From NCBI GenBank assembly GCA_902766655.1, contig CACXEL010000097.1, positions 1 through 19,086 on the forward strand: a DNA stretch of 19,086 nt. The letters run 5' to 3'. Each line of letters starts with the position of its first letter. The first letter of the stretch is position 1. The DNA is from an uncultured Lachnospiraceae bacterium (GTDB lineage: Bacteria; Bacillota; Clostridia; Lachnospirales; Lachnospiraceae). Shown piece by piece: positions 3,809 to 19,048 of this stretch. The position numbers and the translations under genes were made by a program. The notes beneath the pieces are model-generated. The model was not told the origin of the DNA, did not search any database, and worked only from the letters and a program-made list of their open reading frames with translations.

Positions 3809-4234
3809 TTACTTCTTCTTGAAGATCTCTTCCACCGTGTGCCAGCCGAGGACGGCGCACTTGACCCGGGAGGGCATGTGGGAGATGTCCTGCAGGGCGC
3901 CGGCTTCCTCGAGCTCGTCGATCTCCTCTTCGGAGGCCTCACCCTTGATCATCCGGATGAAGATATCCGCCAGGCGGAGGGCTTCCTCCTTCGGCTTGCC
4001 GATGATCAGGTCCAGCATCATGTCCGCGGAGGCCTGGGAGATGGCGCAGCCGTCGCCCACGAAGGCGCCGTCCTCGATCACCCCGTCCTCCACCTTCAGC
4101 TGGAGGGTGATGTCGTCCCCGCAGCTGGGGTTCACGCCGCGCAGCGCGGTGTTCGCCCCCGGCAGGGCGTGCTTGTGCTCCGGGTGCAGGTTGTGCTCGG
4201 TGAGGATCTCGTTGTAGTAGGTGTTACTCGGCAT
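3809..4234 (-). CDS. sufU: SufU, NifU-like Fe-S scaffold / SufS sulfur acceptor (141 aa)
   Basis: The length and motifs match SufU: NPSCGDD with C38 and D40, GDGCAIS with C63, and RVKCAVLGW with C126. These are the four Zn-binding positions (Cys, Asp, Cys, Cys) of the family. The insert between the second and third Cys that distinguishes SufU from IscU is present (ASEEEIDELEEAGALQD region). In this family the protein takes persulfide sulfur from the SufS cysteine and passes it to the SufBCD scaffold. The ATG at 4234 lies inside the end of sufS (11-nt overlap), so translation is coupled. It is the last gene of the suf operon. Confidence 0.95.
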   Translation of the reverse strand: MPSNTYYNEILTEHNLHPEHKHALPGANTALRGVNPSCGDDITLQLKVEDGVIEDGAFVGDGCAISQASADMMLDLIIGKPKEEALRLADIFIRMIKGEASEEEIDELEEAGALQDISHMPSRVKCAVLGWHTVEEIFKKK

Positions 4235-5480
4235 AGCCCATCGCTCCTCTGATGCTCCTGAGCACCGTCAGGAAGCGCCCGATCTCCTCCTCCGTGTTGT
4301 AGAACATCACGCTCGCCCGGGAGGAGGAGGGGATCCCCAGGTGCTGATGCAGGGGCTGCGCGCAGTGATGACCCGCGCGGATGCAGACCCCGCCGTCGCT
4401 CATGATGGCGGAAATGTCGTGCGGGTGCACGCCCTCCACCGTGAAGGCCGCGATGCCGTGGTGCTCCGCGGGATCCTGCGAGCCGATCAGCCGCACGTGG
4501 GGGGTATCCAGGATGCCCTCCACCAGCATGCGGGTGAGGTCCGCCTCCCGCTTCTGGATGCGGTCGAAGCCCACGCGGCCCAGATAGCGGATGGCCTCCG
4601 CCAGCGCCAGCGCGCCGCCGGTGTTCACCGTCCCCGCCTCGAATTTCTGCGGCAGGGGCGCCCACCAGATCTCGTCCGTGGTCACCGCGTCGATCATCTC
4701 GCCGCCGGTGAGGAAGGGGGGCATCTCCTCCAGCAGCGCCCGGCGCCCCCAGAGGACGCCGATGCCCATGGGCGTCAGCATCTTATGCCCGGAGAAGACG
4801 AGGAAATCGACGCCCAGCTCCTGCACGTCCACCGGCATGTGGGGCACGCTCTGGGCCCCGTCGGCGACGATCAGCGTGCCGTTTGCGTGGCACAGCTCCG
4901 CGAAGCGCCGGAGGTCGTTCACCCGGCCGAAGACGTTGGAGCAGTGAGTGATGGCGAGGATCTTCGTGCGCCCGTTCAGCGCCTCCCGCAGGGTCTCCTC
5001 CCGGTAGGTGCCGTCCGGCTCGCAGAGGAGATAGCGCACCTTCGCGCCGGTGCGCTCCGCCGCCATGCGCCAGGGCAGCATGTTGCTGTGGTGCTCCGTG
5101 ATGCCGACCAGCACCTCGTCCCCCGGGCGCAGGATATGACTGCCCAGGCTGTAGGCGATCAGGTTCAGCGATTCGGACGCGTTGCGGGTAAAAATGACCT
5201 CCGCCGCCTCCGGCGCGTTGATGAAGCCGCGCACGGTCTCCCGCGCCGCCTCGTAGGCCTCCGTGATCTGTACGCTCAGGGGGTACAGGCCCCGGAAGGG
5301 GCTCGCCTTCTCCCTGAGATAGTGCTCGGAGACCGTGCGGATCACGCACTCCGGGCAGAGGGAGGTGGCTGAATTGTCAAGATAGGCGGTGTCCTGCGCC
5401 GCAAAGAAGGGGAAGTCCTCGCGCACGGAAGCGATATCCAGCGTGTCCGCGCCCCGCACGCCCTCAAACTGTTGTTCCAT
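4224..5480 (-). CDS. sufS: SufS, cysteine desulfurase (418 aa)
   Basis: This is a group II NifS-like, PLP-dependent enzyme that removes sulfur from L-cysteine as an enzyme-bound persulfide. The PLP lysine is K233 in FSGHKMLTPMGIG (229-241); cofactor contacts are H130-H131 (TEHHSN) and D207/Q210 (ADGAQS). The sulfur-carrying cysteine is C373 in RAGHHCAQPL (368-377), in the short loop typical of SufS. TAYLDNSATS (31-40) is the usual N-terminal motif. The ATG at 5480 overlaps the sufD stop by 17 nt. The protein is full length. Pairing with a downstream SufU rather than SufE is the Firmicute arrangement. Confidence 0.96.
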   Translation of the reverse strand: MEQQFEGVRGADTLDIASVREDFPFFAAQDTAYLDNSATSLCPECVIRTVSEHYLREKASPFRGLYPLSVQITEAYEAARETVRGFINAPEAAEVIFTRNASESLNLIAYSLGSHILRPGDEVLVGITEHHSNMLPWRMAAERTGAKVRYLLCEPDGTYREETLREALNGRTKILAITHCSNVFGRVNDLRRFAELCHANGTLIVADGAQSVPHMPVDVQELGVDFLVFSGHKMLTPMGIGVLWGRRALLEEMPPFLTGGEMIDAVTTDEIWWAPLPQKFEAGTVNTGGALALAEAIRYLGRVGFDRIQKREADLTRMLVEGILDTPHVRLIGSQDPAEHHGIAAFTVEGVHPHDISAIMSDGGVCIRAGHHCAQPLHQHLGIPSSSRASVMFYNTEEEIGRFLTVLRSIRGAMGYAE

Positions 5481-6513
5481 CGGTGTCGAAATCCGCTCCG
5501 TTCAGATATTCCGCGACCGCGACGCGGGTCGCCTCGTCCGGGATCTGCGCCGCCACGGCATTCAGCCGGGAGAGCGCCATCTGCCGGTAAATCAGCTCCA
5601 CGGGCATGCCCCGGGAGGCCATGTAGTAGACCAGTTCCTCGCTCAGGCGGCCGATGGTCGCCCCGTGGGTGCCGGAGACGTCCTCCTCCGCGCAGAGGAT
5701 CAGCGGGATGGTCTGGTTGACGGTGCCGTCGTTCATCAGCAGCACGTCCTCCGTCTCCGCGCCCACCGCTCCGGCGGACCCGCGGCGGAAATCGATCGTC
5801 CCGCGGAAGATCTTCCTCGCGGTGTCCTCCAGGACGCCCGCGGCCTGGATGTCGCAGGTGGTGCGCTTCCCCTCGTGGGGCACCACATAGTTCATGTCGA
5901 TGCGGTGGTCCCGGTTCGCCCGGTAGCCGATGCGGGCGGTGAAGTCGCTCCCCTCGCCCCGCAGCAGCACGTGGGCGCCCAGGTCGGTCTCCCGGCCGTC
6001 CAGCACCAGCTGGATCAGGCGGATGCGCGCGTCCTTCGCGCACTCCCCGCCCACGCTCACCACGCTGCGGCCCTCCGCGCCCACGCGGAAGATCTGCACC
6101 AGGGTGAGCTCGGCCCCCTCGTCCGCCAGCAGCAGCGTCTCGAGGCCGGCCTCGCCGCTGCAGCCCTCGGGCGCGGCGATATCCATCACGGCGGTGACGC
6201 GGCTGCCGGGCTCCGCAGCGATGCGGACGCGGTCCAGCGCGGCGCCCTCCTCCGCCCGCCAGCACAGGCGCAGCAGCGCCTCCCCGGAGGCGGAGAGCGC
6301 CAGGGGCTTCTCTTCCATATTCGCCGCCAGGGCTGCGAAAGCCTCCCCGGCGCTGCCCTTCACGGCCGAAAAATCGCGCGCGCAGGGGGTCCAGTCGCCC
6401 CGCCGCTCCGCGATGAGGAGGCGGCCGCCCTTGCCGGCGTCGAAGTCCGTCTCCCCCTGGTTCATCCGCAGCCAGCGCCAGGTGGGCGCCGGGAGGGTAT
6501 TGATCTTCATCAT
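5464..6513 (-). CDS. sufD: SufD, Fe-S assembly scaffold subunit (349 aa)
   Basis: This is a SufBD-fold protein: a right-handed beta-helix with a C-terminal helical part. The C-terminal signature is GTHGATIGRLSEELVYYMAS (281-300), containing the conserved His (H283) that sits at the SufB-SufD interface in characterised homologues, followed by SRGMP. It forms the SufBC2D scaffold with SufB and SufC. ATG at 6513 (MMKINT) is chosen because AAGGAG lies 6 nt upstream; the open frame extends further to 6621 only by reading through the structured repeat at 6562-6619, which is not coding. The N-terminal 100 residues are Ala-rich and divergent, as is common for SufD. Confidence 0.92.
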   Translation of the reverse strand: MMKINTLPAPTWRWLRMNQGETDFDAGKGGRLLIAERRGDWTPCARDFSAVKGSAGEAFAALAANMEEKPLALSASGEALLRLCWRAEEGAALDRVRIAAEPGSRVTAVMDIAAPEGCSGEAGLETLLLADEGAELTLVQIFRVGAEGRSVVSVGGECAKDARIRLIQLVLDGRETDLGAHVLLRGEGSDFTARIGYRANRDHRIDMNYVVPHEGKRTTCDIQAAGVLEDTARKIFRGTIDFRRGSAGAVGAETEDVLLMNDGTVNQTIPLILCAEEDVSGTHGATIGRLSEELVYYMASRGMPVELIYRQMALSRLNAVAAQIPDEATRVAVAEYLNGADFDTDGTTV

Positions 6514-6561
6514 CCGTTGCTCCTTATATCGCAACTTGACTTTTCTCCCCGGATAATGGGG

Positions 6562-6619
6562 TTTCGCGCCTGCGGGCGCGACCAGAGGCTTTCCGATCGC
6601 CTCCGGACTCTTCGGCGTC
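6562..6619 (+). repeat. Structured intergenic repeat, copy C, inside the suf operon
   Basis: The first hairpin TCGCGCC (6564-6570) / GGCGCGA (6575-6581) is identical to copy B. The second, CCAGAGGC (6582-6589) / GCCTCCGG (6599-6606), is one pair shorter and has one mismatch, but keeps the exact loop TTTCCGATC. The third is GACTC TTCG GCGTC (6606-6619). The element sits between the sufB stop and the sufD ribosome binding site, so it is co-transcribed and could affect mRNA processing or relative expression of the two scaffold subunits. Confidence 0.85.
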
Positions 6620-6640
6620 ATTCCTTTGGAGGAGCTGGTA

Positions 6641-8050
6641 TCAGCCGATGCTGCCCTTCATCTCGAGGCGGATCAGGTTGTTCATCTCCACCGCGTACTC
6701 CAGGGGCAGCTCCTTGGAGACGCTGTCCGCGAAGCCGCTGACGATCATCGCGCGGGCGTCCGCCTCCGGGATGCCCCGGGACATCAGGTAGAAGATCGCG
6801 TCGTCGCTGATGCGGCCGATCTTCGCCTCGTGGCCCACGTCCGCCTGCGAGGTGCGGATATCCATCGCCGGGATGGTATCCGACCGGGAGATATCGTCGA
6901 GCATCAGGCTCTCGCAGGAGGCGGAGGATTTGCTCCCCGCGGCCTTCTCCGTCATCACCACCGCGCTGCGGTAGGTGCTGATGCCCCCGTCCTTGGAGAT
7001 GGATTTGGCCGTGATGGCCGAGGAGGTCTTCGGCGCGGAATGCACCACCTTCATGCCCGTGTCCAGGTTCTGCCCCGCTCCGGCGAAGGTGATGCCCGTG
7101 TAGGTCATGCGGGCGCCCTCCCCGGTGAGCAGCGTCATCGGATACAGATAGGACACGTGGGAGCCGAAGGAACCCGACACCCATTCCATCACGCCGCCCT
7201 CCTCGATGCGGGCGCGCTTGGTGTTCAGGTTGTACATGTTCTTGGACCAGTTCTCGATGGTGGAGTAGCGCAGCTTCGCGTTCTTCGCCACGTAGAGCTC
7301 GACGCAGCCGGCGTGCAGGTTGGCCACGTTGTACTTGGGCGCGGAGCACCCCTCGATGAAGTGCAGGTTCGCGCCTTCGTCCACGATGATCAGCGTGTGC
7401 TCGAACTGCCCCGCCCCCGGCGCGTTCAGCCGGAAGTAGCTCTGCAGCGGGATCTCCACGGTGACTCCCGGCGGCACGTACACGAAGGAACCGCCGGACC
7501 ACACCGCGCCGTGCAGCGCGGCGAACTTGTGGTCCGTGGGCGGCACCAGCTTCATGAAATGGTCATGGATCATGTCCCCGTAGGGGCCGTGCATGGCGCT
7601 CTCCAGGTCCGTGTAGACCACGCCCATGGCCGCGACCTCCTCCCGCACGTTGTGGTAGACCAGCTCGGAGTCGTACTGGGCGCCCACGCCGGCCAGGGAG
7701 GCCCGCTCGGCCTGGGGGATGCCCAGGCGCTCGAAGGTGTCCCTGATCTCCTCGGGGACATCGGCCCAGTCGACGTTCATTTTTGTGTTGGGGCGGACGT
7801 AGGTGACGATATTGTCCATATCCAGGCCTTCGATGTCCGGCCCCCAGTCCACCATCTCCGTCCTGTTGTAGATATCCAGCGATTTGAGGCGGAAGGCCCG
7901 CATCCATTCGGGGTCATTTTTCTCCCGCGAGATCGTCTCGACGATGGCCGGCGTCAGCCCCTCCCCGACCTTCCAGACGTCCTTCTCGGCGTTCCGGAAG
8001 TCGTAGAGCTCGCGGTCCACGTCCTCCACATATGTCTTCTCTTTTTCCAT
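6641..8050 (-). CDS. sufB: SufB, Fe-S assembly scaffold subunit (469 aa)
   Basis: Full-length SufB. Signatures are GSFVYVPPGVTVEIPLQSYF (187-206), FEHTLIIVDEGANLHFIEGC (216-235), HSAPKTSSAITAKSISKDGG (337-356) and SASCESLMLDDIS (376-388). C379 aligns with the Cys that binds the nascent cluster or sulfur in E. coli SufB, and E408 (HEAKIG) with the conserved Glu; C235 is a further conserved Cys. SufB is the core on which clusters assemble, with SufC supplying ATP-driven rearrangement. ATG at 8050 has AAAGGA about 7 nt upstream. It is separated from sufC by 188 bp of tandem repeats and from sufD by repeat copy C. Confidence 0.96.
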   Translation of the reverse strand: MEKEKTYVEDVDRELYDFRNAEKDVWKVGEGLTPAIVETISREKNDPEWMRAFRLKSLDIYNRTEMVDWGPDIEGLDMDNIVTYVRPNTKMNVDWADVPEEIRDTFERLGIPQAERASLAGVGAQYDSELVYHNVREEVAAMGVVYTDLESAMHGPYGDMIHDHFMKLVPPTDHKFAALHGAVWSGGSFVYVPPGVTVEIPLQSYFRLNAPGAGQFEHTLIIVDEGANLHFIEGCSAPKYNVANLHAGCVELYVAKNAKLRYSTIENWSKNMYNLNTKRARIEEGGVMEWVSGSFGSHVSYLYPMTLLTGEGARMTYTGITFAGAGQNLDTGMKVVHSAPKTSSAITAKSISKDGGISTYRSAVVMTEKAAGSKSSASCESLMLDDISRSDTIPAMDIRTSQADVGHEAKIGRISDDAIFYLMSRGIPEADARAMIVSGFADSVSKELPLEYAVEMNNLIRLEMKGSIG

Positions 8051-8107
8051 GGTCTCATCCTTTTCTGACTGCCCGGAAATGAAGCCCGGCTCAGGCCTTG
8101 TCCCTGT

Positions 8108-8238
8108 CAGCCCACACGGCCGTGCCTTTCGAAGCCTGCGCTGGCACCAACCTTGCCGGACCTCCGATACCGGCGAAGGCACCAACCTTGTCAGGCCTCC
8201 GAAGCCGGTACAGGCACTCGCCTTGCAGTGCCTTCCCT
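8108..8238. repeat. Degenerate tandem repeat, about 35-bp period, between sufC and sufB
   Basis: Two adjacent well-matched units at 8143-8177 and 8178-8212 both start GGCACCAACCTTG and share CCTCCGA and CCGG further on. A degenerate unit precedes them (8108-8142, with TTTCGAAGCC matching CTCCGAAGCC). Another follows from 8213 (GGCACT...AGTGCC, a hairpin of its own) and runs into the sufC stop region. The period of 35 is not a multiple of three and the frames through it lack coding character, so it is non-coding. It fills most of the 188-bp gap inside the suf operon. Confidence 0.75.
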
Positions 8239-8988
8239 TCAGGCCTTGTTCTCGTAGGCCGCGAAGCCGTTCCTGCTGATCTCATCCACCAGGGACCCAT
8301 CCCCCTCGGCCACGATCCGGCCGTCCACCAGGATGTGGACCCTGTCCACATGGAGGGAGGAGAGGATGCCCGCGTTGTGGGTGATGATGATCAGGGCGGA
8401 CTCCCTGTCCTTCTGGAATTCCCGGACGCCCCTCGAGACCGTCCGGACCGCATCCACGTCGAGGCCGGAATCCGTCTCGTCCAGAATGGCCAGCGACGGC
8501 TTCAGCATGAGGAGCTGGAGGATCTCGGCCTTCTTCTTCTCGCCTCCGGAGAAGCCGACGTTGAGGTCCCGGTCCGCGTAGGAGGGATCCATGTCGAGGA
8601 GCTCCATGGCCCGCAGGAGCTCCTTGCGGAAGGGGAAGAAGCGGACCTTCTGGCCGGTCCTCATTTCCACGGCGCTGCGGATGAAATTGGTGAGGGAGAG
8701 GCCGGGCACCTCCAGGGGATTCTGGAAGGACATAAAAATGCCGTCCCTGGCCCGCTCGTTGACCGCTTTCTCAAGGAGGTCGCCGCCCAGGAACGTGATC
8801 CGGCCGCCCGTCACGGTGTAGGCGGGACTGCCCATGATGGCGTTGCCCAGGGTGGATTTGCCGGCGCCGTTGGGGCCAAGGATCACGTGGGTCTCGCCCC
8901 TGCCCACCGCAAGGTCCACGCCCCTTAAGATGCTCTTTTCATCCGCGCTGACCGACAGGTCTTCTATTTTCAAAAGTTCTTCAGACAT
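8239..8988 (-). CDS. sufC: SufC, ABC-type ATPase of the Suf scaffold (249 aa)
   Basis: This is a soluble ABC ATPase. Walker A is GPNGAGKST (38-46), the Q-loop is SFQNPLEVPG (87-96), the ABC signature is FSGGEKKKAEI (146-156), Walker B is LAILDETDSGLD (166-177), and an H-loop ITHN follows. The SGGEKKK and ETDSGLD variants are diagnostic of SufC rather than of transporters, and no permease gene is nearby. SufC dimerises on SufB-SufD and drives cluster assembly. ATG at 8988 follows a GGAGG 4 nt upstream, with a second GGAG further up; the open frame reaches 9063 but that part overlaps the promoter. It is the first gene of the suf operon. Confidence 0.96.
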   Translation of the reverse strand: MSEELLKIEDLSVSADEKSILRGVDLAVGRGETHVILGPNGAGKSTLGNAIMGSPAYTVTGGRITFLGGDLLEKAVNERARDGIFMSFQNPLEVPGLSLTNFIRSAVEMRTGQKVRFFPFRKELLRAMELLDMDPSYADRDLNVGFSGGEKKKAEILQLLMLKPSLAILDETDSGLDVDAVRTVSRGVREFQKDRESALIIITHNAGILSSLHVDRVHILVDGRIVAEGDGSLVDEISRNGFAAYENKA

Positions 8989-9031
8989 AATGCCTCCGCT
9001 CCTATTTCCTAGTGTTTTACTTGGTTTTACT

Positions 9032-9059
9032 ATTATAGCGCATCCGCCTGGAAATGCAA
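9032..9059 (-). promoter_or_regulatory. Probable suf operon promoter
   Basis: On the minus strand, TTGCAT (9059 to 9054) and TATAAT (9037 to 9032) are 16 bp apart, about 40 nt upstream of the sufC start. Directly downstream of the -10 lies a tandem direct repeat AGTAAAAC ... AGTAAAAC with a 10-bp period. A second possible promoter, TTGACA (9132 to 9127) with TACCAT (9108 to 9103) and 18-bp spacing, lies further upstream. Confidence 0.72.
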
Positions 9060-9072
9060 GCATTTTGGTAGG

Positions 9073-9093
9073 AATTAATGTGGGTACTTAATT
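9073..9093. promoter_or_regulatory. Palindromic candidate operator upstream of suf
   Basis: AATTAA (9073-9078) and TTAATT (9088-9093) form a perfect 6-bp inverted repeat with a 9-bp spacer, just upstream of the -35 box of the suf promoter and at the expected start of the more distal one. An AT-rich dyad of this size suits a dimeric winged-helix regulator. Suf operons are often controlled by Rrf2-family proteins, but the regulator is not in this window and the link is inferred. Confidence 0.4.
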
Positions 9094-9191
9094 TCGCGCA
9101 TCATGGTAATCGAGCCGCCCGCTGCCTGTCAATCGGTTCTTGTCCTTTTCCCTGTAGAAAATTCGGAAAACCATTCTGAATGCAGCCATAG

Positions 9192-9224
9192 AAAAAGGAC
9201 CAGATTTTGGATCTCTGGTCCTTT
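9192..9224 (-). terminator. Rho-independent terminator of the copper operon
   Basis: Read on the minus strand, AAAGGACCAGA (9224 to 9214) pairs perfectly with TCTGGTCCTTT (9204 to 9194) around a 9-nt loop, and the stem continues into a T run (9196 to 9192). It lies about 200 nt downstream of the small membrane-peptide gene. Confidence 0.85.
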
Positions 9225-9249
9225 GGCTTCAGTATTTGCAGCTGTTCGA

Positions 9250-9389
9250 CACCCCGGAATAATGAAGAAAAACTGGCTGGCAAGCTTGCCTGGCAGACAG
9301 GTTTTATTCATTATTTCCAGGTGGCCAGGGCACGAAGCGACTCTGGCTACCCACTGCGAGGGATGCTTTGCATCCTGAGCCCGTGGGGT
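9250..9389. repeat. Cluster of palindromic elements downstream of the copper operon
   Basis: This is the content of the long non-coding gap 9225-9420. An imperfect dyad of about 74 bp spans 9250-9323 and is centred on CAAGCTTG (9281-9288); its arms share AATAATGAA and TTCATTATT. It is followed by GCCAG (9324-9328) / CTGGC (9343-9347), and then by ACCCAC (9349-9354) / GTGGGGT (9383-9389), which encloses GGATGC TTT GCATCC (9361-9375). No protein-like frame is convincing here. The pattern resembles a miniature inverted-repeat or REP-like element. Confidence 0.6.
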
Positions 9390-9420
9390 GCCGGGAAAAA
9401 GTCGGCGCTCTCCGCCCCGT

Positions 9421-9504
9421 TCAGTCGTCCAGGACGGCGACGGTGGTGACCGCCACGGCCACGATGGCGGCAAATGCAGTGATGGCTACAATCATTCTGG
9501 TCAT
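9421..9504 (-). CDS. 27-aa single-helix membrane peptide downstream of copA
   Basis: From ATG at 9504 the minus strand encodes a 27-residue peptide that begins MTRMIVAITAFAAIVAVAV and ends AVLDD. It is a single hydrophobic helix (about residues 4-24) with a basic N-terminus and an acidic C-terminus, suggesting N-in insertion. The Shine-Dalgarno is very strong: GAGGAGG (9519 to 9513), 8 nt from the ATG. The gene lies 50 nt after the copA stop and ahead of the operon terminator, so it is probably co-transcribed. I do not recognise a family. It could be a small regulatory or stabilising subunit of the CopA pump; that is inferred only from position and topology. A short GGCCTGACAGGCC dyad (9529-9541) lies in the intercistronic gap. 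Confidence 0.68.
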   Translation of the reverse strand: MTRMIVAITAFAAIVAVAVTTVAVLDD

Positions 9505-9554
9505 AATACTATCCTCCTCTTTATGAATGGCCTGACAGGCCCGGCGTATCTGTC

Positions 9555-9764
9555 TTACTCGATTCCCAGAACGTCGTAGTCCTTGGCCTCGACGGCCTCC
9601 TTGAGGGCCTCGTCGGCGACGTCCGCGCTCAGCGTCACGACTGCCGTGCCGGCCTCATGGCTCACGACGGCGCTCTCGACGCCCTCCAGCTTCTCCAGGG
9701 CCTTCTTCACGGTGGCTTCGCAGTGGGGGCACATCATGCCCTCGATCTTCATGGTCTTTGTCAT
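9555..9764 (-). CDS. copZ: Possible independent CopZ copper chaperone from an internal start in copA (69 aa)
   Basis: Within copA and in the same frame, ATG at 9764 is preceded by AAAGGA (9776 to 9771) with an optimal 6-nt spacer. Translation from there would give a 69-residue protein, the normal length of free CopZ, with [12 protein letters not shown] carrying the CxxC Cu(I) site (C12, C15) and a complete beta-alpha-beta-beta-alpha-beta fold. The position of the Met exactly at the end of the linker suggests that a separate copZ gene was fused to copA by loss of its intervening stop while keeping its ribosome binding site. Use of this start is inferred; the product would deliver copper to the pump. 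Confidence 0.5.
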
Positions 9765-12200
9765 CTCGATTCCTTTCCCGCCTTGGTCGGCGTCCTTGTT
9801 TGTATGTTCAAGAAGCCAGCCATTTTCGTCGGTGGCGACGGGATGGCTCAGCTTTTTGTCCCTTGCTGTGCTGCGGACCTTGAAGAGGTTGAGCCGCAGC
9901 GCGTTGGACACGACGCAGAAGCTGGACAGGCTCATGGCCGCCGCCCCGAACATCGGGTCCATGGTGATCCCGAAGAGATGGCTGTAGGCGCCGGCCGCCA
10001 CCGGCACCAGGGCCACGTTGTAAATGAGGGCCCAGAAGAGGTTCTCCAGGATATTCTTGTAGGTCTGCCGGCTCAGCCGGACCGCCGCGGCCACATCCAT
10101 GAGGCTGCTCTTCATGAGGACCACATCCGCCGCGTCGATGGCCACGTCCGTGCCGGCCCCGATGGCGATCCCGATGTCTGCCCGGGTCAGGGCCGGAGCA
10201 TCGTTGATGCCGTCGCCGACCATGGCCACCTTGTAGGCATTCGGCACCTCCTTCCTGAAGAGCTTCTGGAAGAGGTTGGGCCTCCGATGGCCAGCGCCTT
10301 TTCCCTGAAGCCGCCGGATGATCTCCTCCTTGCCGCTCGGGAGCACGCCCGCCACGACCTCGTCGACGCCGGCCAGCCGCCCGATGGCCTCGGCTGTCCT
10401 CTGGTTGTCGCCGGTCAGCATGACCACGTGGATGCCCATGCCCCTCAGCTGGGCGATGGCTTCGGCGCTGTCGGCCTTGATGGTGTCCGCCACCGCGATC
10501 ACGCCCTTGAGGGCGCCGTTCTCCGCAAAGAAGAGCGGCGTCTTGCCCTCACCCGAGAGGGCCTCAGCCCGCTCGCGGGTGGCCGTATCCACCCTGACTT
10601 TCCCGGAAATGAAGCCCATGTTCCCGCCGAGCAGCTTCCTGTCCCCGAGCCGGGCCTTGAGCCCGTTGCCCGGAAGGGCCGTGAAGTCTTCCACTTCACC
10701 CGCCTCAATATGCTCCTCCTCGGCCCGGTCCATGACGGCCCTGGCCAGAGGATGCTCGCTCTTCTTCTCGAGCGCCGCAGCCATCTCAAGGAGCTCCCGC
10801 TCCGTCACGCCTGCCGCCGGCAGGATGTCCGTGACCTTCGGCTGACCGCTGGTGATGGTACCCGTCTTGTCCAGGGCCACGACCTGGACGCTGCCGGTCT
10901 CCTGGAGGGCCTCCGCGTTCTTGAAGAGGATGCCGTTCTTCGCGCCCATGCCGTTTCCGACCATGATGGCCACGGGTGTGGCCAGGCCCAGGGCGCAGGG
11001 GCAGCTGACGACCAGGACGCAGATACCGCGGGCCAGGGCGAAGCCGAAGCTCTGCCCGGCCAGGAGCCATATAACGGTGGTGACAACAGCTATACAGATG
11101 ACCACCGGCACGAAGTATCCGGAAATGGTGTCCGCCAGCTTCGCGACCGGCGCCTTGGTGGCCGCCGCATCCGAGACCATGGAAATGATCTGGGCCAGGG
11201 AAGTGTCCTCCCCCACCCGGGTCGCCTCGCACTTTAAGAAGCCCGACTGGTTGATGGTGGCCGAGGAGACCTCGTCGCCCGGCGCCTTGTCCACCGGCAG
11301 GCTCTCCCCGGTCAGGGCGGACTCGTTGACCGCGCCGCTGCCTTCGATGACCACGCCGTCCACAGGGATATTCTCGCCAGGCCTCACCACGAAAATGTCG
11401 CCTCTCCTCACAGAATCCACGGGGACAGTGACTTCATTTCCCTCCCGAATGAGCGTGGCGGTCTTTGGGGCCAGCTTCATGAGGCTCTTCAAGGCATTGG
11501 TCGTCTTGCCCTTGGAGTAGGCCTCCAGCATCTTGCCCACCGTGATCAGGGTCAGGATCATGGCCGCCGACTCGAAGTAGAACTCCATCATGCAGGCCAT
11601 GACAGTCTCCATATCCCCGTCCACCTGGGCCCGGGTCATCACGAAGAGCATGGCCGTCGAGTAGGCGAAGGCCGCGGAGGAACCCAGGGCGATCAGCGTG
11701 TCCATGTTGGGCGCGCCGTGGAAGAGGCTCTTATAGCCGCTGGTGAAGAATTTCTGGTTGATCACCATGATGATGCCCGAAAGGAGGAGCTGGATGAGGC
11801 CCATGGCCACGTGGTTGTCCTCGAAAAATGAAGGCAGTGGCCACCCCCACATCATGTGCCCCATGGAAAAATACATGAGGACCAGAAGGAAGCCGAGGGA
11901 GGTCAGCAGGCGCTTCCTGAGCGCCGGCGTCGCCCGGTCCTTCAGGGCTTCCTCCTCGGCGGCCAGCCTGGCGGAGAGGCTGCCGCTCTCCTCTTTGGGG
12001 GTGCCTTTCACGGCAGCGCCGTAGCCGGCATTTTCCACCGCGGAGATGATCTCGGCGGGGGATGCGGTGCCCTCCACGCCCATGGAATTGGTCAGCAGGC
12101 TGACCGAACAGGCGGAGACGCCCGGCACCTTGGATACCGCCTTCTCGACCCGGGCCTGGCAGGCGGCGCAGCTCATGCCCGTAACTGTATATTGGTCCAT
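9555..12200 (-). CDS. copA: CopA, Cu(I)-exporting P1B-1 ATPase with C-terminal CopZ-like domain (881 aa)
   Basis: Domain order: N-terminal heavy-metal domain with GMSCAACQ (C11, C14); eight membrane helices; actuator TGES (297-300); metal-site CPC (400-402); phosphorylation DKTGT (D444); SEHPL (481-485); GDGINDAP (662-669). YN (727-728) and [15 protein letters not shown] (756-770) in the last two helices are the Cu(I)-specific residues. A flexible linker then leads to a second metal-binding domain, GMMCPHC (821-827). The usual single-MBD CopA is about 740-800 aa, so the tail is an added chaperone domain. A roughly 20-residue basic insertion (about 633-656) precedes [11 protein letters not shown] at 12200 has GGGAGG 6 nt upstream. 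The gene lies 41 nt after csoR. Confidence 0.95.
9765..9776 (-). promoter_or_regulatory. Internal Shine-Dalgarno at the copA/copZ junction
   Basis: AAAGGA followed by six bases and ATG, inside the copA reading frame. It encodes a Gly-Lys-Gly-Ile-Glu segment of the linker, a region under little structural constraint, so its agreement with a ribosome binding site is notable. Confidence 0.5.
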
Positions 12201-12241: not shown

Positions 12242-12574
12242 TCACTTCATCAGCTTCTGCAGGGTCTTCACCAGCTCGTCCAGCTTCTCGGTGCCGCCCT
12301 CCTGGACGTCCTCCGCGACGCAGGTCCGGATGTGCTCGGTCAGGACCAGCTTGGTGAAGCTGTTCAGGGCGCAGTTGGCTGCCGAGACCTGGTTGATGAT
12401 GTCAATGCAGTAGGCGTCCTCCTCCACCATGCGGCGGATGCCGCGGATCTGCCCCTCGATCCGGCTCAGACGGTTGAGCAGGTCTCTGGCCTCCTTCTCG
12501 CTCCGCCCTCTGGTGCGGCAGCAGGGAGGGAGGGAGCTGCCGTCTTCCGGGGTTTTCATTTCCATATCATCCAT
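12242..12574 (-). CDS. csoR: CsoR, copper-sensing transcriptional repressor (110 aa)
   Basis: This is a CsoR/RcnR-family all-helical repressor (DUF156). The Cu(I) ligands are C56 (DAYCID), H81 (LTEHIR) and C85 (RTCV), spaced 25 and 4 residues apart exactly as in M. tuberculosis CsoR. The helix-1 signature [19 protein letters not shown] (32-50) is typical. The N-terminus carries an extra Cys pair (C18-C19). ATG at 12574 is chosen over the ATG at 12592 because AAGGAGG ends 6 nt before it; the upstream Met codon would contain that site. It is the first gene of the copper operon and very likely autoregulated through the two operators upstream. Apo-CsoR binds DNA and Cu(I) releases it. Confidence 0.95.
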
Positions 12575-12682
12575 GAAGGGCCTCCTTGTCATACTTTCGA
12601 GAGCAGTCGGGACAGGTTTTTCCTCTCATCCGTCGGTCCGGACACATTCCGGGCGGGGAGAGGGTTCTTTCCCGGCAGACAG

Positions 12683-17133: not shown

Positions 17134-19008
17134 TCAGAGGTTCTTCACCGCGAGGCACCGGACTGCGTTCAGTACGCAGAGGACCATGACGCCCACGTCG
17201 GCGAAGATGGCCAGCCACATATTGGCGATGCCCAGGGCCCCCAGAAGGAGGCAGAGGAGCTTGACGCCGATGGCGAAATAAATGTTCTCGTAGACGATCC
17301 GGATGCATTTCTTCGCGATCCGGATGGCCTTGGCGATCTTCACGGGATCGTCGTCCATGAGGACCACGTCCGCGGCCTCGATGGCCGCATCCGAGCCGAG
17401 AGCGCCCATGGCGATGCCGACGTCCGCCCTGGAGAGGACCGGCGCGTCGTTGATGCCGTCGCCCACAAAGGCAACTCTCGCCTTCTCCGAGCTGCCTTTC
17501 AGGAGCCGCTCGACCTCGGTGACCTTGTCCCCGGGCAGGAGCTCGGCGCGATACTCGTCAATCCCCAGCTCGGCAGCCACGGCCCTGGCCACGGATTCTT
17601 TGTCACCGGTCAGCATGACCGTCTTCGTGACGCCGGCCGCCGCCAGCTTCCGCATGGCCTCCCGGGCCGTCTCCTTGATCTCGTCGGAAATGACCACATG
17701 CCCTTGGTACTCCCCGTCCACGGCAGTGTGGACGATGGTCCCCGGGCTGTGGCATTCAGGCACGTCCACGCCCACCTCCCGCATGAGCCGGAGGTTGCCG
17801 GCAGCCGTCTCCCGGCCGTCGACCCTGGCGATGACGCCGGCGCCGCTGATCTCCCTGACGTCGGTCACTCTCCCCTGGTCCAGCTCCCGCCCGCAGGCCT
17901 CGCGGAGACTCCTGCTGATGGGGTGCGAGGAGTGGAGCTCAGCCAGCGCAGCCATCTCGAGCAGGTCCTCCCGTTCCATGGCCGCATGATGGACGTCCGT
18001 GACCTTGAAATTGCCTTTGGTCACGGTGCCGGTCTTGTCGAAAGCCACCGTCTTCACCTGTGCCAGTGTCTCCATGAAGTTGGAACCCTTGATCAGGATG
18101 CCCTGGGCGCTGGCCCCGCCGATGCCGCCGAAAAAGCTCAGCGGTATGCTGACCACGATGGCGCAGGGGCAGCTGATGACCAGGAAGGTCAGGGCCCTGT
18201 ATACCCAGTCGCCCCACATGGGCGCGAGTCCCATGATGAGCCTGACGACGGGCGGAAGGACCGCCAGCGCCAGCGCGCCGTAGCAGACAGCCGGCGTATA
18301 GACGCGGGCGAATTTGGTGATGAACTGTTCGGACCGGGCCTTTCTGGATGAGGCGTTCTCCACCAGGTCCAGGATCTTGGAGGCGGTGGACTCGTCGAAC
18401 TCCTTCTCGGTCCTTATTTTCAGGAGGCCGGACATGTTGACGCAGCCGCTGATCACGCTGTCCCCGACGGAGACGTCCTGCGGGGCGCTCTCGCCCGTCA
18501 GTGCGGCCGTGTTGAGGGTCGAATTTCCGAAAATGACGACACCGTCGATGGGTACCTTCTCCCCGGGATTCACGACGATGACGGAGCCCACCTCCACCTC
18601 GTCCGGGTCCACCCGCTCCACATTGCCATCCTCGTCCTCGTAATTGGCATAGTCGGGCCGGATGTCCATGAGCTCGGAGATATTCCGCCTGGACTTGCCC
18701 ACAGCGTAGCTCTGGAAGAGCTCTCCGATCTGGTAGAACCACATGACGGCCACGCCTTCGGTGTACTCGCCCAGGATCATGGCGCCGATGGTGGCCACGG
18801 CCATGAGGAAGCACTCGTCGAAGACCTGGCGGTTGAGGATGCCCTTCCCGGCCTTGCGGAGGATATCATACCCCACGGTAAAGTATGGAATAAGGAAAAG
18901 AAGGAACCGCACGACCGGGTAGTCCTTCAGCGGCAGGAGGGCCAGCACTAGGAGCATTGCCCCGGCGGCAATGACCCGGATCAGTAAGTTTTTCTGTTTT
19001 TTAGTCAT
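17134..19008 (-). CDS. Zn/Cd/Pb-exporting P1B-2 ATPase, ZntA/CadA-like, without N-terminal metal-binding domain (624 aa)
   Basis: This is a heavy-metal P-type ATPase with actuator TGES (171-174), CPC (280-282), DKTGT (D324), SHP (361-363) and GDGINDAP (516-523). K583 (AIGVKLL) and D604 (FADVGVM), 21 residues apart, match E. coli ZntA K693 and D714, which define the Zn2+/Cd2+/Pb2+ specificity. The N-terminus begins directly with the first membrane helix (7-26): the CxxC domain and any His-rich tail usual in ZntA/CadA are absent. ATG at 19008 is chosen over GTG at 19017 because AAAGGTG lies 6 nt upstream. It is presumably in the plasma membrane. No ArsR/SmtB or MerR regulator is seen in the window. 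Confidence 0.93.
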   Translation of the reverse strand: MTKKQKNLLIRVIAAGAMLLVLALLPLKDYPVVRFLLFLIPYFTVGYDILRKAGKGILNRQVFDECFLMAVATIGAMILGEYTEGVAVMWFYQIGELFQSYAVGKSRRNISELMDIRPDYANYEDEDGNVERVDPDEVEVGSVIVVNPGEKVPIDGVVIFGNSTLNTAALTGESAPQDVSVGDSVISGCVNMSGLLKIRTEKEFDESTASKILDLVENASSRKARSEQFITKFARVYTPAVCYGALALAVLPPVVRLIMGLAPMWGDWVYRALTFLVISCPCAIVVSIPLSFFGGIGGASAQGILIKGSNFMETLAQVKTVAFDKTGTVTKGNFKVTDVHHAAMEREDLLEMAALAELHSSHPISRSLREACGRELDQGRVTDVREISGAGVIARVDGRETAAGNLRLMREVGVDVPECHSPGTIVHTAVDGEYQGHVVISDEIKETAREAMRKLAAAGVTKTVMLTGDKESVARAVAAELGIDEYRAELLPGDKVTEVERLLKGSSEKARVAFVGDGINDAPVLSRADVGIAMGALGSDAAIEAADVVLMDDDPVKIAKAIRIAKKCIRIVYENIYFAIGVKLLCLLLGALGIANMWLAIFADVGVMVLCVLNAVRCLAVKNL

Positions 19009-19048
19009 CTTATCCACCTTTCGGGCAGTCAGGAGGGGTGGAAGGCCT

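Follow-up and report, generated by a model that had tools for sequence, protein, structure and literature searches.

Does the copper-pump gene copA of an uncultured Lachnospiraceae bacterium contain, in its own reading frame, a second gene for a free copper chaperone? The question is raised by a stretch of 19,086 nucleotides of contig CACXEL010000097.1 (hereafter the window), in which the C-terminal HMA domain of the predicted pump begins with a Met codon that is preceded by a Shine-Dalgarno (SD) sequence. From the comparison of this site with its counterparts in relatives we infer that ribosomes initiate at this codon in the cell, and internal in-frame initiation that makes free CopZ from copA is the best-supported reading of the locus and very probably the correct one. 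Ribosomes starting at 12200 would make a membrane copper pump with an HMA domain tethered at each end, and other ribosomes would bind the SD at 9776-9771, initiate without a change of frame at ATG 9764 and make a free, 69-residue chaperone of the CopZ type that is identical to the C-terminal domain of the pump. The free form may carry cytosolic Cu(I) to the pump and perhaps also to the neighbouring CsoR-type repressor.

The copA locus and its predicted 69-residue product

The copA gene (9555..12200, minus strand) encodes a P1B-type copper ATPase of 881 amino acids, in which Pfam identifies two HMA domains, one at each terminus, in addition to the E1-E2 ATPase and Hydrolase domains. It starts at ATG 12200 with the SD GGGAGG ahead, and its frame is open further upstream to GTG 12245. 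The N-terminal HMA domain occupies 12021..12191 (minus strand; PF00403, 62.2 bits), and a gene for a metal-sensitive repressor of the CsoR/DUF156 type (12242..12592, minus strand; PF02583, 108.6 bits) adjoins copA. A variable linker (9765..9875, minus strand, with approximate limits set by eye) leads from the last membrane helix to the C-terminal HMA domain and has the SD AAAGGA (9771..9776, minus strand) at its end, which is followed by the in-frame ATG (9762..9764, minus strand) of the putative nested copZ. On the minus strand the site reads GGGAAAGGA ATCGAG ATG ACA AAG ACC, so that an in-frame start codon and an SD at a usable spacing are both present. The nested copZ (9555..9764, minus strand) ends with the TAA of copA (9557-9555). 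The sequence-only reading of the window had described AAAGGA, a spacing of 6 nt (AAAGGA-ATCGAG-ATG), a Met codon and exactly 69 codons in frame from it, and the description proved exact when the minus strand was re-read.

The 69 residues are predicted to form a complete HMA fold (pLDDT 94.6), with strands at residues 2-8, 29-35, 40-45 and 64-68 and helices at residues 13-24 and 51-59. They carry the HMA domain (PF00403, 64.6 bits) with a GMxCxxC metal site (GMMCPHC) of a copper chaperone of the CopZ/Atx1 type. The best PDB matches by Foldseek are CopZ 6ff2 and then CopZ 2qif, and the sequence matches are led by metal-binding domains of copper ATPases, with CopZ entries after them. The product is a putative copper chaperone.

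Taken by itself, the window gene makes a modest case. The SD of ATG 9764 pairs with the anti-SD at -10.4 kcal/mol, which is the strongest pairing among the 36 in-frame ATGs of copA (runner-up, -8.1). Synonymous recodings of the same residues have a structure as weak as that of the native start region in 14.2% of cases, and the single-gene evidence is only suggestive because 10.1% of the recodings match the native SD in pairing strength; neither the SD nor the low structure is significant. The 16S tail of this genome was not found in its draft assembly (76% complete), and all of the related genomes searched (4/4) have the canonical 16S 3' end.

Free CopZ could also be made from a transcript of its own, started at an internal promoter, or be cut from CopA by proteolysis, and thus not come from copA mRNA. 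The linker seems flexible enough to be cleaved, but proteolysis would require neither an SD nor a start codon. An internal promoter was rejected as a candidate: a scan confined to consensus promoters within 9050-10000 revealed no promoter-like site on the minus (coding) strand between 9764 and 10000, and a separate transcript would still use the internal start. We regard both sources as very improbable, and initiation within the copA mRNA is preferred.

Just 3' of copA is a hydrophobic ORF of 27 codons (MTRMIVAITAFAAIVAVAVTTVAVLDD; 9504-9421, minus strand) with a strong SD. In none of the 34 other genus loci inspected is copA followed by a similar peptide, three of them having unrelated, SD-preceded short frames at that place, and this small ORF was rejected as a conserved element. 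Directly downstream of copA is also what appears to be a cluster for iron-sulphur assembly of the SUF type (ORFs like SufC/B/D/S/U, named by eye; 3809-9063, minus strand). An ORF of 627 aa (17134-19017, minus strand) encodes another P-type metal ATPase, the second in the window; PF00403 detects no HMA domain in it.

Start codon and SD in relatives

A whole-CopA search of 42 genomes for the genus set gave 38 loci with a readable C-terminus, from 36 genomes; another locus (L006) was left out because its sequence is truncated ahead of the site. All 38 loci are fused, and in each the HMA domain is immediately preceded by an ATG, with SDs that pair at -9.2 to -13.5 kcal/mol, although their linkers vary in length and sequence. 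A larger set was compiled from the genus loci, 80 related contigs, the matches listed in a sample of 250 genomes of the family and extra stretches, in which fused loci were defined by the presence of a stop, a terminal HMA domain and 90 residues upstream, and removal of duplicates reduced 259 loci to 255 unique ones. Among the matches listed, an ATG is found in 250 of the 255 loci and an ATG with a strong SD (anti-SD pairing of -8 kcal/mol or better) in 246. A sample of the class (291 genomes) contributed 74 further fused loci among the matches listed: 65 with ATG and SD, two with GTG or TTG and an SD, three with ATG and a weaker SD and four without either. GTG and TTG stand in the place of the ATG once each (L369 and L404), with strong SDs of -16.4 and -13.4, respectively, which fits a start codon better than a methionine needed by the protein. 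The start or the SD is missing or weak in 9/255, 7/74 and, among low-scoring genomes (see below), 2/21 loci, plus L435, a locus with a lost start that is absent among the family-sample matches listed.

These locus counts are samples and not a census because they were taken from matches listed. The search model contains the Met, and the resulting ranking bias was checked with the whole-CopA genus set and with low-scoring genomes of the family (63 searched, 30 loci read), a check by which such bias is not fully excluded. Among the matches listed for the low-scoring genomes, 21 loci are fused by the above rule, 19 of them with ATG and SD and two with none; L463, which has ATG and SD and failed the terminal rule, is outside these 21. 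Of the 80 related contigs, 20 are titled Lachnospiraceae, and the titles also include Ruminococcus, Gemmiger, Acutalibacter, Evtepia, Hornefia, Mogibacterium, Butyrivibrio and one Erysipelotrichaceae; the scope of the wider searches, Clostridia, rests on these titles.

When the seven residues ahead of the ATG were recoded according to the codon use of the gene concerned (200 trials), a strong SD was predicted in a mean of 114.65 and a maximum of 130 of the 250 loci with ATG, compared with the 246 observed. Of the 4058 other ATGs that these genes have in frame, no more than 152 are preceded by a strong SD. Chance is excluded as the source of ATG and SD across the relatives. Pairing of a 9-base window with the anti-SD (-6 or better) is found in 91% of loci at position -16 and in 1 to 6% at sampled positions from -75 to -25, and its peak is limited to about -18 to -13. 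The register of the SD spans all three codon phases (198, 41 and 9 loci), which indicates no fixed amino-acid motif, and in 12 loci with the ATG two codons closer to the cysteine the commonest spacing is still 8 (6/12). In 36 disjoint close pairs, third-position mismatches amount to 21/108 in the SD core, 485/1152 in the linker plus the last membrane helix and 50/108 in the spacer, so that third positions of the SD core change about half as often as those of the linker. The absence of ATG mismatches in these pairs is by construction, all loci there having the ATG.

The same data bear on whether the site is a relic of a recent fusion, in which copA lost its stop and was read into copZ, and the old SD and ATG persist without function. 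A fusion of this kind would produce the observed anatomy; stand-alone copZ frames (L411-L421) exist elsewhere in the class, and there is one frame-broken copA-copZ overlap (L244). The fusion is, however, found in all readable genus loci with very different linkers, and in the class sample it occurs under at least 30 further family labels; a neutral relic would have drifted at the SD third positions that are constrained here. On the conservation of SD and ATG, the synonymous excess and the constraint in close pairs, a recent neutral relic was rejected, and we consider this explanation highly unlikely.

SD-like sequences have also been proposed as pause sites, a proposal that is disputed. The SD-like stretch of copA might make elongation pause between the membrane part and the last domain, or the Met and an E/K/G-rich stretch might be needed as residues of the pump. 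Part of the signal does lie at the amino-acid level, and about 46% of synonymous recodings keep a strong SD, but neither idea accounts for a start codon whose spacing hardly varies, its replacement by GTG or TTG, an SD in three codon phases or the AT-rich, unstructured flanks described below. With the internal HMA domains considered in the next section, there is very little probability left for a pause or a need for these residues.

The surroundings of the internal ATG are open: in 108 GC-rich loci the minimum free energy of the segment from -22 to +32 has a mean of -3.06, vs. -15.78 elsewhere in the genes. The 54-base window of codons -7 to +11 in the same loci has a mean of -3.07, vs. -4.98 for synonymous recodings, and structure is weaker than the locus's own recoding null in 91 of the 108; most of the openness therefore comes from the residues and part of it from codon choice. 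In the family set, 9 of the 11 codons between -3 and +8 (the ATG left out) have A/T in the third position more often than expected. Thus, across relatives, start and SD are selected beyond the protein sequence, which the window gene alone does not show at a significant level. An internal ribosome-binding site in a copA-copZ fusion had been proposed from the sequence-only reading, with conservation of SD and ATG at synonymous positions as its expected mark; this conservation is seen in the relatives and lends support to the proposal. The recurrence of the arrangement across the class sample and the position of the site in an AT-rich, unstructured patch go beyond what had been noted.

Internal HMA domains, separate copZ genes and lost starts

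The Met is lacking in 7/7 HMA domains that have other HMA domains both before and after them in the protein, and a Met conserved for protein reasons was rejected on this ground; its absence there is likewise unexplained by pausing or by a need for pump residues. The list of internal HMA domains had 18 entries, 11 of which were set aside after inspection as N-terminal HMA domains with the frame open upstream (10 with Met and one without). Where a pump has two C-terminal HMA domains (L026, L060, L069 and L396), the start is found only on the last one, and the first of the pair is among the seven domains without Met.

In genome G092, a stand-alone copZ is similar to the fused copy over its whole length and for about 24 nt ahead of the ATG, beyond which the similarity ends, a boundary which indicates that SD and copZ were copied out as one unit. 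This genome has kept the internal start as well as the separate CopZ. In G110 (L167 and L435), a separate copZ (a frame of 76 codons) lies behind a frame that is CsoR-like by eye, and the fused copy (L435) has neither Met nor SD, while in G162, which has a separate CopZ (L219), the fused copy (L226) has lost the SD. G110 and G162 fit relaxed selection on the internal start. This fit is only suggestive because, among the matches listed, a separate CopZ of >100 bits is found in no other genome that has lost start or SD, and because small HMA proteins do not separate the groups: a frame of at most 150 aa that scores at least 50 bits for HMA is present in 9 of 11 such genomes, a count that leaves out G110 and G200, both with a separate copZ, vs. 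16 of 30 intact ones. The idea that the start is lost wherever any small HMA protein exists is not supported by the latter figure.

Stand-alone copZ frames are also found elsewhere in the class (the L411-L421 mentioned above). In the overlap of L244 (genome G209), which may be an assembly error, copA and copZ are in different frames and the copA frame continues past the copZ start, so that CopZ there could come only from its own start.

Known systems and a probable nested copZ in Clostridia

Programmed -1 frameshifting is reportedly how E. coli makes CopA(Z), in work attributed to Meydan et al. and Drees et al., both of 2017. The copA of E. coli, which yields CopA(Z) by frameshifting according to an excerpt of PMC5009743, resembles the gene in the window in that two proteins come from one gene, the pump itself and a small HMA protein (about 70 residues) that binds copper. 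Unlike in E. coli, where the 5' segment is used and a frameshift ends translation early, here the C-terminal domain would be made from a new in-frame start. The slippery heptamer (X XXY YYZ) that such a frameshift would have downstream of the N-terminal HMA domain was not found in the zero frame of codons 1-140 of copA.

The internal-start product of ArcB is the C-terminal part of the protein. ArcB is given as a case of an in-frame internal start in an excerpt of PMC11005335, and partial accounts describe the CTP1L endolysin, SpaO-short and Cas11b as further in-frame internal starts that give a short C-terminal product. The predicted copZ start is like these in that a downstream start in the same frame gives a shorter product, but none of them is a metal pump with its chaperone. 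A C-terminal metal-binding domain is also found on the CopA of Archaeoglobus fulgidus (excerpt of PMC7558416), which has two MBDs (excerpt of PMC11970713); the excerpts of these two papers, by whose description alone the proteins are compared, do not mention an internal start.

Separate copZ genes are described in part of PMC4938975 for Listeria (csoR-copA-copZ) and B. subtilis (copZA). The predicted product is the same kind of protein as a separate CopZ, and 2qif, its second-best fold match, has 69 residues, but here copZ lies wholly inside copA and in frame, unlike the copZ of Listeria and B. subtilis, which is a gene of its own. In gut Clostridiales, the CsoR regulon is also reported there to lack CopZ (PMC4938975, in part), an absence that a nested copZ may explain. 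We think it likely, from these comparisons of genes, that much of the Clostridia does have CopZ, encoded in frame inside copA, with class-wide selection on its own SD and start, and that it is occasionally released (G092) and decays where a separate copZ exists (G110 and G162). No report of an internal copZ start in copA was found in the titles and abstracts of the open literature searched, to which most subscription papers do not belong. If true, a nested copZ would be a second bacterial route to a pump and a chaperone from one gene, gene callers may overlook the chaperone in many species, and pump and chaperone would be locked to one reading frame, with the small product still tunable through its own SD.

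Other HMA proteins are encoded in the genome of the window (76% complete), one next to an ArsR-like frame (C260) and another next to feo-like frames (C276), all named by eye. Small HMA proteins (some 90 residues long) that have a metal site of the CxMC type were also observed (L425, L426, L430, L443 and L448, and L004 in the genome of the window). Several of them have a PYEKKGLF-like tail, and they are sometimes encoded beside copA and, in the genome of the window, beside feo-like frames.
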